Source: Rhizobiaceae bacterium (lineage in GTDB: Bacteria; Pseudomonadota; Alphaproteobacteria; Rhizobiales; Rhizobiaceae). From it: a stretch of DNA of 64,000 bases. The first letter of the stretch is position 1. Each line of letters opens with the position of its first letter. Below, in pieces: positions 8,395 through 26,961 of this stretch. Made by a program: the position numbers and the translations under genes. The notes under the pieces were generated by a model. That model was not told the origin of the DNA, made no database searches, and saw nothing but the letters and a program-made list of their open reading frames with translations. The stretch is taken from positions 806,001-870,000 of the forward strand of contig JAEPNK010000002.1 in assembly GCA_017643495.1 (NCBI GenBank), given 5' to 3'.

Positions 8395-8967
8395 CTACAT
8401 CCCGTCCTTGCCGCGACTGACAGCAGCCACACCCGTTCGGCAAACTTCAACAAGGCCAAGCGGCTCCATGATGGAAATAAACTGCTCGATCTTGGATATG
8501 CGGCCGGTAATCTCGAACGTGAAATGTTCGGTGGATGCATCAATGACCTGGGCCCGGAAAGCATCTGCAAGACGCATCGCTTCAACCCGGTCCTCGCCCT
8601 TTCCGGCCACTTTCACCATCGCCAGTTCGCGCTCGATCGGCTTGCTGTGACCATTCATTTCGGCAAGCAGGGTCAGGTCAATAACCCGGTGCACCGGCAC
8701 CATGCGCTCAAGCTGTTTCTTGATCTGGTCAAGCACCTGCAATGTTCCCGAGGAAACGACCGTGATGCGCGACAAATGCTTGTCGTGACTGGTCTCGGAC
8801 ACCGTAAGGCTCTCGATATTGTATCCCCGGCCGGAAAACAGGCCGATTACCCGGGCCAGCACGCCCGGCTCGTTGTCAACGAGAACGGCGAGAACATGAG
8901 TACGTGGCTGTTCCTTGTTTTCAACAATGAAATAGGCCGAACCCGTTGGCTGGTGTTGTGCGTTCAT
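8395..8967 (-). CDS. ilvH: Acetolactate synthase small (regulatory) subunit
   Basis: The 190-residue product has an N-terminal ACT domain (HVLAVLVDNEPGVLARVIGLFSGRGYN is the effector-binding strand-helix) and a C-terminal ALS_ss domain (VIDASTEHFTFEITG, FISIMEPLGLVEVCRTG). It activates the catalytic subunit IlvI and gives valine feedback inhibition in branched-chain amino acid synthesis. The ATG at 8967 overlaps the stop of the preceding transporter gene by four bases, which fixes the start. The genes run ilvI, eamA, ilvH. Confidence 0.95.
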   Translation of the reverse strand: MNAQHQPTGSAYFIVENKEQPRTHVLAVLVDNEPGVLARVIGLFSGRGYNIESLTVSETSHDKHLSRITVVSSGTLQVLDQIKKQLERMVPVHRVIDLTLLAEMNGHSKPIERELAMVKVAGKGEDRVEAMRLADAFRAQVIDASTEHFTFEITGRISKIEQFISIMEPLGLVEVCRTGVAAVSRGKDGM

Positions 8968-9893
8968 TGTGCGACCCCTGTATTGAGTTTCTGTTTGGGC
9001 TTGATGCGGGCAATGGCAACACCCGCCAAAATGATTACCAGTGCAAGAATGGCATTGGGCGGCAGGGTTTCCCCGAGCAGAAGAATTGCCCAGAAGACCC
9101 CGAATACCGGCACAAGAAAATTGATTTGGGACAGGAAACCGGCGCCCTGTCGTTGAATGATTGCAAACAGCATCAGCGTACCAATGCCGGTTGGAAAGAT
9201 GCCAAGCAGGACCAGCATCAGCCAGCTTGTGCCGGAAATGCTGAGTGTCCACGGCTGGTCAATGAAAAGGCTGAAAGGCAACAGAGCAATCGAGGACGCA
9301 ATCAGGACGCCCGACGATACGGCCCGTCTTGGCAAACCGGTCAGCGATTTCGACAGGATTGCATGGATACCGTAACAGCAGGCAGCACCCATGATGGCAT
9401 ACTGGCGTATGGTTTCCTCTCCCAGCGTCGCCAGCTTATCGAAGCCGATGAGAACGGCAACGCCGAACAGGCCCAGCACAAACCCCACCACCCGGTAGGC
9501 ATTGAGCTTTTCATCCTGTGTAAAGAAATGCGCCAGTACCAGCGTGATCAGTGGCATGACCGCCATCAGGATCGCCGTCAATCCGGCATCAACGCGCCCC
9601 TGCCCCCAGGCAACCAGGGAAAAGGGAAGCACGTTGCCGAACAAGCCGACAAGCAGGATCAGTTTCCAGTGGACAGCAATCGACTTCAGGTTTTGCCCGG
9701 TGACGACCATGACTGCATGGATCAACACGGCTGCTATCGCGATGCGGCTGAATGCAATCGTGACGGGTGGCACTTCGTCGACAGCCACCTTGGTCCACAT
9801 GAAGGCAATGCCGAACATCGCCCCGAGGACCACCAGCAATGTATAATCCACAAGCCCCGGATTTGGTTTTTCGTTCACTTGCTTTCCTATCAA
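8964..9893 (-). CDS. EamA/DMT family transporter inside the ilvIH operon
   Basis: The 309-residue protein has about ten hydrophobic helices arranged as two EamA repeats (AFSRIAIAAVLIH... and ...GTSWLMLVLLGIFPTGIGTLMLFAIIQRQGA). The family exports amino acids and other metabolites. It overlaps the stop of ilvI by four bases (9890-9893) and its own stop overlaps the start of ilvH by four bases, so all three genes are likely translationally coupled. The context suggests, but does not show, export of a branched-chain amino acid or a pathway intermediate. Confidence 0.9.
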   Translation of the reverse strand: MIGKQVNEKPNPGLVDYTLLVVLGAMFGIAFMWTKVAVDEVPPVTIAFSRIAIAAVLIHAVMVVTGQNLKSIAVHWKLILLVGLFGNVLPFSLVAWGQGRVDAGLTAILMAVMPLITLVLAHFFTQDEKLNAYRVVGFVLGLFGVAVLIGFDKLATLGEETIRQYAIMGAACCYGIHAILSKSLTGLPRRAVSSGVLIASSIALLPFSLFIDQPWTLSISGTSWLMLVLLGIFPTGIGTLMLFAIIQRQGAGFLSQINFLVPVFGVFWAILLLGETLPPNAILALVIILAGVAIARIKPKQKLNTGVAQ

Positions 9894-11665
9894 ACGAGCG
9901 CCTTGCCTTTTTCGTCAATCGCGGAACCGACTGCCTCGTCCGTTGCCTCGTCCGGCAGCAGCATTTCATTATGCGCCTTGCCTGACGGGATCATCGGGAA
10001 ACAATTGGTAAGATTGGCGACGTGGCAATCGAAAATGACCGGAGCATCCGTCTCGATCATTTGCATGATCGCATCATCAAGCTTGTCCGGATTGTCACAC
10101 CGTATGCCAACGCCGCCATAGGCCTCGGCAAGTTTTACAAAATCCGGCATCGCTTCCGTATAGGAATGTGACAACCGGTTGCCATGCAGCAATTGCTGCC
10201 ATTGGCGAACCATGCCCATGTACTGGTTGTTCAGGATGAAAATCTTGATCGGTGCATTGTGCTGTATCGCCGCCGACATTTCCTGAATGCACATCTGGAT
10301 GGAGGCATCACCGGCAATGTCGATGACCAGCGCATCGGGATGGGCAATCTGCACACCAAGCGCGGCAGGAAGACCGTATCCCATTGTGCCAAGACCGCCG
10401 GAAGTCATCCACCGGTTCGGTTTTTCAAAACCGAAATACTGTGCAGCCCACATCTGGTGCTGTCCGACTTCGGTCGTGATATACGTCTCGCGATCCTTCG
10501 TCAGTTCATAAAGACGCTCAATCGCATATTGGGGCATGATCGACTTTTTGGAAGTCTGGTAGGCAAGCGAATTGCGTGCACGCCATCCGTCAATCTCTTT
10601 CCACCAGTCCTTGATCGCTGCTTTGTCTGCAACCTGTTTTTCGGCATGCAGCAGGCGGACCATTTCCTCAAGTACCTTCTCGCAATCCCCGATAATCGGG
10701 ACATCGATGGGTACATTCTTGCCAATGGAAGACGGGTCGATATCAATGTGGATCTTCTTCGAACCCGGCGAAAATGCATCGACCCGGCCAGTAATCCGGT
10801 CGTCGAAACGCGCGCCGACACACAGCATGACATCACAATCATGCATCGCCATGTTGGCTTCATAGGTGCCGTGCATGCCCAGCATGCCAAGCCAGTTCTC
10901 ACCGCTGGCAGGATAGGCGCCAAGCCCCATCAATGTTGATGTGATCGGAAAACCGGTCAGCTCGACCAGCTCACGCAACAGCTTGCTCGCCTCATCACCG
11001 GAATTGATAACTCCGCCACCCGAATAGATGATCGGCTTTTTGGCCGATTTCAGCAGTTCCACTGCCGCCTTGATTTGATCGAGATTGCCGGAAACTTGCG
11101 GCGAATAACCCTTGAGATCAGCTTCCGAAGGCGGAAAGTATGTACCGGTGGCAAACTGGACATCCTTCGGAATGTCGATAAGAACCGGCCCCGGCCTGCC
11201 GTTAATGGCAACATGGAATGCCTCGTGCAAGACCTGTGGCAACTCATTCACATCACGAACCAGCCAGTTGTGCTTGGTGCATGGGCGGGTAATGCCAACC
11301 GTGTCGGCTTCCTGGAAAGCATCAGAACCGATAAGCGGCGTCGGTACCTGGCCGGTGATGCAGATAACCGGAACACTGTCCATCAGTGCGTCCTGGAGAG
11401 GCGTGACAGCATTGGTCGCACCGGGACCGGAAGTCACCAGCATGCAGCCAACCTTGCCGGTTGAGCGGGCATAGCCTTCTGCCGCATGCCCTGCTCCCTG
11501 TTCGTGGCGCACAAGGATGTGTCGAAGCTCTTCCTGCTGGAAAATCTCGTCATAGATCGGCAGAACCGCTCCGCCGGGATATCCAAAGATCGTATCGACC
11601 CCGTTATCGATCAATGCCCTGACGACCATCTCCGCGCCGGTCATCTCCTCATGTTTCGTCATCAT
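9890..11665 (-). CDS. ilvI: Acetolactate synthase large (catalytic) subunit
   Basis: This thiamine-diphosphate enzyme makes acetolactate from pyruvate, and acetohydroxybutyrate from pyruvate plus 2-oxobutyrate. The N-terminal domain has the catalytic glutamate in RHEQGAGHAAEGYAR (Glu55); FAD-domain segments follow; the C-terminal TPP motif is GDASIQMCIQEM with NNQYMGMVRQWQ. About 591 residues, normal for the family. I start at the first of two tandem ATGs because AGGAAG lies just upstream; a GTG at 11680 would add five residues. A leader peptide and terminator precede it. Confidence 0.96.
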   Translation of the reverse strand: MMTKHEEMTGAEMVVRALIDNGVDTIFGYPGGAVLPIYDEIFQQEELRHILVRHEQGAGHAAEGYARSTGKVGCMLVTSGPGATNAVTPLQDALMDSVPVICITGQVPTPLIGSDAFQEADTVGITRPCTKHNWLVRDVNELPQVLHEAFHVAINGRPGPVLIDIPKDVQFATGTYFPPSEADLKGYSPQVSGNLDQIKAAVELLKSAKKPIIYSGGGVINSGDEASKLLRELVELTGFPITSTLMGLGAYPASGENWLGMLGMHGTYEANMAMHDCDVMLCVGARFDDRITGRVDAFSPGSKKIHIDIDPSSIGKNVPIDVPIIGDCEKVLEEMVRLLHAEKQVADKAAIKDWWKEIDGWRARNSLAYQTSKKSIMPQYAIERLYELTKDRETYITTEVGQHQMWAAQYFGFEKPNRWMTSGGLGTMGYGLPAALGVQIAHPDALVIDIAGDASIQMCIQEMSAAIQHNAPIKIFILNNQYMGMVRQWQQLLHGNRLSHSYTEAMPDFVKLAEAYGGVGIRCDNPDKLDDAIMQMIETDAPVIFDCHVANLTNCFPMIPSGKAHNEMLLPDEATDEAVGSAIDEKGKALV

Positions 11666-11723
11666 CTTTCTTCCTGTCACTGCCTTGCTGGCGTCTTTAA
11701 CTCAAAAATCGAAAAGCGGGCAT

Positions 11724-11746
11724 AAAAAAAGCCCCCTTTGGGAGCT
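11724..11746 (-). terminator. Attenuator terminator upstream of ilvI
   Basis: Read on the minus strand, AGCTCCC and GGGGGCT form a 7-bp stem (one G-U pair) around an AAA loop, followed by seven Ts. It lies between a short leader ORF and the ilvI start, where it would stop transcription before the structural genes. Confidence 0.8.
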
Positions 11747-11753
11747 GTTTTCG

Positions 11754-11804
11754 GCGTACACGCTGCTTTCGCGATGGTTCTAACGATCCATCACGCGTGT
11801 ACGC
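11754..11804 (-). promoter_or_regulatory. Leader RNA stem-loop of the ilvI attenuator
   Basis: A perfect 10-bp pairing joins 11795-11804, within the last codons of the leader ORF, to 11754-11763, just before the terminator hairpin. A nested GATGG/CCATC pairing (11788-11792 with 11773-11777) encloses the leader stop codon. A ribosome stalled on the hydrophobic codons or released at the stop would change this fold. I could not identify which segment forms the antiterminator. Confidence 0.6.
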
Positions 11805-11833
11805 ACCATCACCACAAGAATTTCGAATTTCAT
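11780..11833 (-). CDS. Branched-chain amino acid leader peptide
   Basis: A 17-codon ORF encodes MKFEILVVMVRTRVMDR, with Ile-Leu-Val-Val-Met-Val in a run, ending in TAG. A GAGG sequence eight bases upstream serves as ribosome binding site. Its position ahead of a stem-loop and an intrinsic terminator before ilvI is typical of leader peptides that couple ribosome stalling at scarce Ile, Leu or Val tRNAs to transcription read-through. Attenuation of ilv operons is known in proteobacteria; this instance is inferred from sequence. Confidence 0.8.
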   Translation of the reverse strand: MKFEILVVMVRTRVMDR

Positions 11834-12081
11834 TCGGCCAACCTCAGATTACGCGCGGAACCCTAAACGCGCTTTTTCAATACGTCAACTCGCTAATCGC
11901 ATCATGTCCATGAGAATTCGACAGGACATACGCATGATGTGGCATTTCACTACAACCAAGAACATGCCCCGGTGCCCATGACCTCACTGGGTTGCAGTCA
12001 TGCAATCGTCCAACGAAACAGGGAACGGTCAAACCGGACAGTAGCGGATGCAGGCATCACCCTCGCCTGCACGACATACCG

Positions 12082-26552: not shown

Positions 26553-26611
26553 TTCGGCGACCTGTCAAACTGAAGCCTTTAAATTCCCGGCCGCTTCTCT
26601 TATATTGGTTG

Positions 26612-26931
26612 TGCTGGGCAACCAGCTATGACGATAAATTGCCTGTGCAATAAACCATTCGGACCCGGGGGCGGTACCCGGCGCCTCCACCACAAGCCCT
26701 TCCTGCCGCAGAAGGTTTTGTGATGGGGGCGAAACAGGATCGACGAGGGTGTAAAGACAGTGTTTTCGTTCGGTATTGTACCACCGTTATCGGGCTAAAT
26801 TTCTAGTTGCAAACGACAACTATGCGGAAGCTCGTCTAGCTGCTTAATTGCGGTTCGACAGTTTCACACTGAACTCCTGACGGTTCGCACTGTCAGGCGG
26901 GGTCCGAAGGCACCTGGCAACAGAAGCCTTC
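26612..26931 (+). ncRNA. ssrA: Transfer-messenger RNA, permuted two-piece form
   Basis: The order is acceptor piece then coding piece, as in alphaproteobacteria. The acceptor piece ends CCTCCACCA at 26692; the coding piece begins GGGGGCG at 26725 and these pair into a 7-bp acceptor stem. About 32 bases between them would be removed. The tag reading frame runs 26809-26847 and encodes ANDNYAEARLAA followed by TAA. A TATATT box lies at 26601-26606. A hairpin GAAGGC/GCCTTC (26906-26931) with a T-rich tail ends the gene. End points are estimates. Confidence 0.95.
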
Positions 26932-26961
26932 ACCTTATTTTTCTGGAGCATTATCCCGGTC

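Follow-up and report, generated by a model that had tools for sequence, protein, structure and literature searches.

The locus upstream of ilvI raises the question of how a short leader with a terminator might sense branched-chain amino acids and set the expression of the genes behind it. We analysed a window, the whole 64,000-nt stretch of DNA from a Rhizobiaceae bacterium, in which the leader lies on the minus strand with miaA as the gene upstream of it and an operon of the order ilvI-eamA-ilvH downstream. The sequence-only reading had described, in front of ilvI, an ORF of 17 codons with a run of Ile-Leu-Val-Val-Met-Val, a 10-bp stem, and a terminator hairpin with a T tail; sequence, fold and conservation confirmed these parts. 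The 17-codon ORF, MKFEILVVMVRTRVMDR, runs on the minus strand from ATG 11833-11831 to the stop codon TAG 11782-11780; the 10-bp outer stem pairs GCGTACACGC (11804-11795) with GCGTGTACGC (11763-11754); and the terminator has the arms AGCTCCC (11746-11740) and GGGGGCT (11736-11730) and seven T (11730-11724), the first of which is paired. In the operon the eamA stop codon and the ilvH start codon overlap as ATGA. The features, listed in the direction of transcription, are as follows.

11860..11888, minus strand: probable promoter, TTGACG (11888-11883), 17 nt, TAGGGT (11865-11860), picked by eye and absent from the consensus scan output
11842..11845, minus strand: Shine-Dalgarno-like GAGG, 8 nt 5' of the leader ATG (sequence)
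11714..11834, minus strand: match to Rfam RF02502 Atu_C8, 52.3 bits (Rfam covariance scan)
11780..11833, minus strand: leader peptide ORF MKFEILVVMVRTRVMDR (sequence; same-genus relatives MHKILVVMERTRVTGR in L118 and MHKILVVMKRTRVASR in L119)
11810..11821, minus strand: sensor codons Ile5-Leu6-Val7-Val8, ATT CTT GTG GTG (sequence; family codon bias)
11805..11809, minus strand: 5-nt spacer ATGGT from the Ile-Leu-Val-Val block to the stem (gap of 5 in 135/154 leaders)
11795..11804, minus strand: outer stem strand 1, GCGTACACGC (fold and covariation)
11771..11794, minus strand: inner hairpin GTGATGG...CCATCGC; its loop contains the stop codon (sequence, fold)
11754..11763, minus strand: outer stem strand 2, GCGTGTACGC (fold and covariation)
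11724..11746, minus strand: intrinsic terminator AGCTCCC AAA GGGGGCT plus T tract (sequence, terminator scan, fold)
11718..11723, minus strand: conserved post-T-tract sequence, ATGCCC in the window and A/G-TT-GCC in the family (leader comparison and genome control)
9890..11665, minus strand: ilvI, acetolactate synthase large subunit (NF006581, TIGR00118; start taken as ATG 11665)
8964..9878, minus strand: eamA, EamA-family transporter (PF00892; probable GTG start at 9878)
8395..8967, minus strand: ilvH, acetolactate synthase small subunit (NF008864)

Folding of the leader RNA, one of the checks proposed with the earlier reading, gave -46.5 kcal/mol (z = -3.8), more stable than 200 of 200 dinucleotide shuffles, none of which was equally stable. 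A plain consensus terminator scan found 6 terminator-like sites, against 6.7 expected in shuffles, and did not single out the leader. The leader stands beyond chance because its ORF, stem and terminator are conserved with compensatory changes. To follow this conservation, 197 ilvI upstream regions (80 named loci, 57 loci from order and family searches, and 60 fetched regions) were scanned for short ORFs in which some stretch of six residues had four or more Ile/Leu/Val and which lay 38-64 nt before a terminator. By that one scan the leader was found in 162/197 regions; it missed three named loci, and the covariance model recovers L026 and L031 among them and not L060. A non-redundant subset of 56 leaders (similarity < 0.80) was drawn from the 162. 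Typical Rhizobiaceae leader peptides read ...ILVVGRRMGRMV, those of the window's genus ILVVM(E/K)RTRV, and that of the window itself ILVVMVRTRV. Among the named ilvI sequences scanned, the closest to that of the window belongs to an uncultured Rhizobiaceae MAG (84% identity). Outside the order the leader is rare: among 40 class regions, fetched out of 109 class genomes with a match, it was clear only in L249 and L251, both of one family, with L240 as a candidate. Of these three, the covariance model recovered L251 (E 0.004) and L249 (E 0.06) but missed L240. Short ORFs beginning MISW... or MIAW... before ilvI in some order members were considered as a second leader class and rejected, since by eye they read as the C-terminus of miaA.

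Alignment of related ilvI leaders, also proposed earlier as a check, showed the ORF and the stem to be conserved and compensatory pairs to be present. When 33 leaders were aligned blind to structure, 5 of 9 outer-stem pairs varied in both partners, and pairing was lost in 2 of 297 cells. In 65 model-aligned leaders, an alignment fitted to the structure by the model and so biased towards it, outer-stem cells were paired at 98.6% and double changes occurred at 8 of 9 pairs; the covariation score over the whole structure for these 65 leaders was 0.571, compared to 0.176 for shuffled and at most 0.088 for slid alignments. A few leaders (L121, L123, and L128) keep the stem with the peptide after the Ile/Leu/Val run in another reading register, and therefore the stem, not the peptide tail, appears to be the conserved thing. 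Comparative sequence data thus indicate that the outer stem is a real RNA structure, a covarying hairpin 1:2 that adjoins the sensor codons.

The ORF in the window is short and rich in codons for amino acids of the pathway (ILVV), and an intrinsic terminator is located between it and the biosynthetic genes. Codon choice in the run was counted in 31 of the 56 non-redundant leaders, those with ilvI in the locus, and compared to ilvI of the same 31 genomes. GTA made up 47% of Val sensor codons (3% in ilvI), CTT 53% of Leu sensor codons (9% in ilvI), and ATT 62% of Ile sensor codons (18% in ilvI). Judged by its codons, the leader peptide is a sensor of Ile/Leu/Val. The element is very likely an attenuator controlled by charged branched-chain tRNA, a classification that we rate as high in confidence. 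In the named loci TTGAC is found 35-38 nt 5' of the leader ATG (71 occurrences in 77 leaders), a spacing that implies leaderless translation of the peptide in most of these loci (L002-L081); leaderless trpL has been reported (PMC10117765, in the part available). The window and other families have TTGAC 52-60 nt from the leader ATG (55 nt in the window), which gives room for a ribosome site, and a few other-family leaders likewise show the 35-38 nt spacing.

Attenuation of ilvIH by branched-chain tRNA has already been predicted, and a case has been described in Caulobacter. Vitreschak reportedly predicted ilvIH attenuation in alphaproteobacteria in 2004, as cited by others. For S. meliloti, an "ilvIH cis regulatory" element is listed with reference to Vitreschak (excerpt of PMC2573895), and a leader of Caulobacter ilvBN is described (excerpt of PMC4117421). 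As far as the accessible parts of these sources go, Caulobacter ilvBN (Tarleton, 1994) and the predicted alphaproteobacterial ilvIH attenuators resemble the window leader in the Ile/Val-rich peptide and in the terminator before acetolactate synthase genes. The leader departs from these by an unusual, family-wide design within a known kind of attenuator: on our modelling, the ilvI-eamA-ilvH leader, which belongs to a widespread family of ilvI leaders, is probably a ribosome-sensing attenuator, responding to charged Ile, Leu or Val tRNA, that operates without a classical antiterminator. This would be a large and well-defined case of leader-peptide attenuation that dispenses with the textbook antiterminator, found alongside trp leaders of the classical type in one bacterial family.

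The position of the sensor codons relative to the stem was measured in 154 leaders, namely the window and those that the model hit with E <= 0.1 in 185 sources other than the window (64/94 and 89/90). The stem, counted from the first model pair, starts 5 nt past the Ile/Leu/Val run in 135/154 leaders and in 43/56 of the non-redundant set; the gap is 4-6 nt in 142/154, and the distance from ATG to stem ranges from 20 to 71 nt. If weak outer pairs are counted too, the gap is 5 in 70, 4 in 53, and 3 in 17 of the 154. Since the leaders share ancestry, the 5-nt gap may be partly inherited. Some A-site Ile/Leu/Val codon puts the first stem nt at +12 or +13 from the P-site codon in 145/154 leaders (nine fall outside), which is the position of a dnaX-type pausing stem, less closely so if the outer pairs are counted. 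Purines make up 81% of the 5-nt spacer across 135 leaders and 70% across the 52 distinct spacers, and the linker between stem and terminator is 3-12 nt in the model coordinates of the 154 leaders. The ilv stem is thus similar to dnaX-type pausing stems in lying 5 nt past the A-site codon and 11 nt from the first nt of the P site, behind a purine-rich spacer; it differs in having a terminator downstream, and a frameshift or slippery site is not claimed.

For comparison of this register we used trp leaders of the peTrpL/rnTrpL type, because folds of the E. coli leaders missed some textbook 1:2 hairpins (ilvL and ivbL gave positive gaps). The trp set consists of 30 loci (L272-L301) among 40 genomes with a match, reduced to 29 for the stall test described below; these leaders lie 5' of trpE and carry two or three Trp codons and strong antiterminators. 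The trp leaders are similar to the ilv leaders in the short peptide, the two hairpins and the terminator, and they are found in the same genomes. However, a strong antiterminator is present in 28/29 and the sensor codons are located in strand 1 in 29/30, and the ilv leaders have neither. By this placement of the codons, with Trp codons inside the paired region in 29/30 trp leaders of the same family, a starved ribosome would stand inside strand 1 in trp and at the foot of the stem in ilv.

One way in which this register could control termination is as follows. When amino acids are plentiful, the ribosome would open the stem, reach the stop codon in the inner loop and leave, and the terminator would form. 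Under shortage of Ile, Leu or Val, the ribosome would halt once the last of these codons occupied the A site, and its mRNA entry would then lie at the base of the folded stem. The stem would span the ∼50 nt from ribosome to terminator and would bring the ribosome to ∼7 nt from the terminator 5' arm. A ribosome parked there would leave the terminator hairpin no space at the polymerase, and transcription would continue. With both hairpins formed, 11 nt in the ribosome, the 7-nt linker and 7 or 8 nt of T tract add up to 25-26 unpaired nt from the P site to the RNA end (arithmetic on the window that ignores helix widths). In the available part of one study, ribosome and polymerase make contact at a minimum spacing of 28 nt, and spacings of <=37 nt count as collided (PMC11711091), and in that of another, collided ribosome-polymerase complexes exclude termination hairpins (PMC7858274). 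Compared to these collision distances, the spacing of 25-26 nt means that a parked ribosome could bar the terminator. We regard parking of a starved ribosome at the stem, with blocking of the terminator, as a tentative model of clearly less than even odds. A wider version of the idea, conceivable but speculative, is a distinct mechanism without an RNA switch, in which the fixed stem would strap ribosome and polymerase together, the same stem would gate the tRNA at the last sensor codon, and the design would be the standard branched-chain sensing of Hyphomicrobiales. If true, ribosome-polymerase contacts would be a regulated switch and not a by-product of coupling.

The main rival to ribosome parking gives the outer stem itself a role in promoting termination, either by acting as a pause hairpin or by crowding the polymerase. 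Stalling of a starved ribosome would then melt part of the stem and lower termination, with no need for an antiterminator. The outer stem is the sole conserved element that a ribosome would alter, the edge of the ribosome footprint a few nt past mRNA entry would open the first pairs, and the 3-12 nt linker to the terminator is short. Melting, however, would want sensor codons inside strand 1, where 29/30 trp leaders have them, whereas the ilv codons end 5 nt before the stem in 135/154. We consider this explanation rather unlikely, if a serious competitor.

Another explanation, to which we give a low probability, is that the outer stem is a brake on the ribosome, 11 nt from the P-site codon, that competes with tRNA for the A site and renders the final sensor codon hypersensitive to the charging level, with read-through of the terminator as a separate step. 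The geometry is that of the dnaX and HIV stems in the accessible portion of PMC7282821, where the mRNA channel is 11 nt downstream of the P-site first nt and A-site tRNA binding is hindered by stems at a distance of 11-12 nt but not at 13 nt; the purine-rich 5-nt spacer is also in its favor. On the other hand, extended stems lost the effect and A-site tRNA was no longer hindered (PMC8861025, available part), and the long stem with its inner hairpin may be too long for dnaX-like action, a point that counts against ribosome parking as well. A brake would by itself leave antitermination unexplained, and it is compatible with ribosome parking.

Classical attenuation would have strand 2 pair with the terminator 5' arm upon stalling, forming a 2:3 antiterminator. 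The leader has a list of parts like that of trp-type attenuators, and Caulobacter ilvBN is described in this way (PMC4117421, in the part available). We examined this pairing by a stall test, the energy gained when the terminator 5' arm pairs with RNA left free by a stalled ribosome. In the window no antiterminator was found, and the best stall gain was -0.85 kcal/mol. Among the 56 ilv leaders the best-stall gain reached -5 kcal/mol or lower in one (L097), with a median of -1.9. As a positive control, 28/29 trp leaders of the same bacterial family reached -5 kcal/mol (median -10.7), although their z-scores against shuffles were modest (15/29 at <= -1.5). Of the E. coli control leaders, 6/7 were at <= -7.5 kcal/mol and hisL failed at -3.9; at the last sensor codon alone, the thr, leu, trp, and phe leaders stood out and hisL, ilvL, and ivbL did not.

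The terminator 5' arm was then compared to replacement arms. Against shuffled arms, the leader's own arm was better in 4/56 leaders at the last sensor codon (p 8e-9) and in 11/56 and 14/56 at later offsets. Against swapped arms it was better in 14/56 (p 6e-4, a direction opposite to that of an antiterminator), and at earlier stall positions own and swapped arms were no different. Pairing of strand 2 with the terminator 5' arm was therefore unsupported over nine ribosome positions with swapped and shuffled arms. Three other pairings were tried. Strand 2 with the terminator 3' arm was marginal (own better than swapped in 36/56, with p 0.02 at a single one of the three offsets). Swap tests gave no support to pairing between upstream RNA and the conserved tail 3' of the T tract, and with the leader's 5' half own 5' arms paired more weakly than swapped ones. 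At equilibrium the terminator forms in the naked, stalled and stopped states with a median probability above 0.9999, in a calculation that omits the steric block by the ribosome; the pairing tests in turn covered antiterminator hairpins, as distinct from pseudoknots or protein antiterminators. Since the terminator forms regardless of the state of the ribosome, the ilv leaders appear to be insulated.

With no antiterminator in the window or in nearly all leaders, and with positive controls, the arrangement is non-classical: the pairing with the terminator 5' arm that marks a classical attenuator is missing. We concluded with high confidence, on the energy model used, that a classical antiterminator is absent from the ilv leader family; given negative swap, shuffle and best-stall tests beside matched positive controls, classical attenuation is very unlikely here. 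The earlier proposal of attenuation by branched-chain tRNA charging is thus supported in part: conservation, covariation and rare sensor codons speak for its core, and an antiterminator of the classical kind was not found. No paper on a missing antiterminator was found in the literature searched, which left most subscription papers outside and is weak evidence of novelty.

The leader also corresponds to a known RNA family. RF02502 (Atu_C8) matches it over the full model 1-122 with 52.3 bits, barely above the gathering score of 50 (E 6e-8 over the window), and this is the sole match in its own genome. The model extends from roughly the leader ATG to just past the T tract. Rfam labels the family "Gene; sRNA" (Rhizobiales), whereas we read the element in the window as the terminated leader of an ilvI attenuator, so that a curated "sRNA" family is now tied to an attenuator leader. 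The model is narrow: 6/289 sampled class genomes match at E <= 0.001 and 2 are above the cut-off. No paper linking Atu_C8 to ilvI was found in the literature searched (most subscription papers lay outside it, and the evidence of novelty is weak), and the main text of PMC3738593 does not mention ilv. A mainly trans-acting sRNA, with ORF and operon position secondary, is highly improbable despite the Rfam type and the attenuator-derived rnTrpL of Sinorhizobium that acts in trans (PMC10117765, in part), because the element adjoins ilvI in 162/197 regions, keeps its stem pairing despite sequence change, which is ill-suited to target pairing, and has rare Ile/Leu/Val codons in its run. A second role of the leader RNA in trans is possible.

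A T-box or riboswitch was also considered and rejected: a whole-window Rfam scan at gathering thresholds gave three matches only, tmRNA (by two models) and Atu_C8. The tmRNA is an alphaproteobacterial permuted tmRNA at 26574-26934 on the plus strand. Elsewhere, Atu_C8 scored 98.8 bits at L082 (G107:C3:9228-9347), whose genome is assigned to another family of the class; horizontal transfer or a foreign contig would explain this.

Sequence conservation continues past the terminator, where A/G-T-T-G-C-C follows the T tract with 70-88% per position after the first. A loose form of this pattern occurs in 30/56 leaders, compared to 2/70 terminator-like sites in 464 kb of the window's own genome, one of the two being the ilvI terminator. 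This sequence might act as downstream DNA that slows the polymerase where the T tract ends.

The gene content behind the leader varies. In the window (8395-11665) an EamA transporter gene lies between ilvI and ilvH, and by eye EamA-like proteins also follow ilvI in L118, L119, L120, L121, L128, L033, and L134. A threonine-dehydratase-like protein follows ilvI in L122 and L123 and a GST-like protein in L002, again by eye. An ilvH motif was found within 400 nt of the ilvI stop codon in 109/137 loci.
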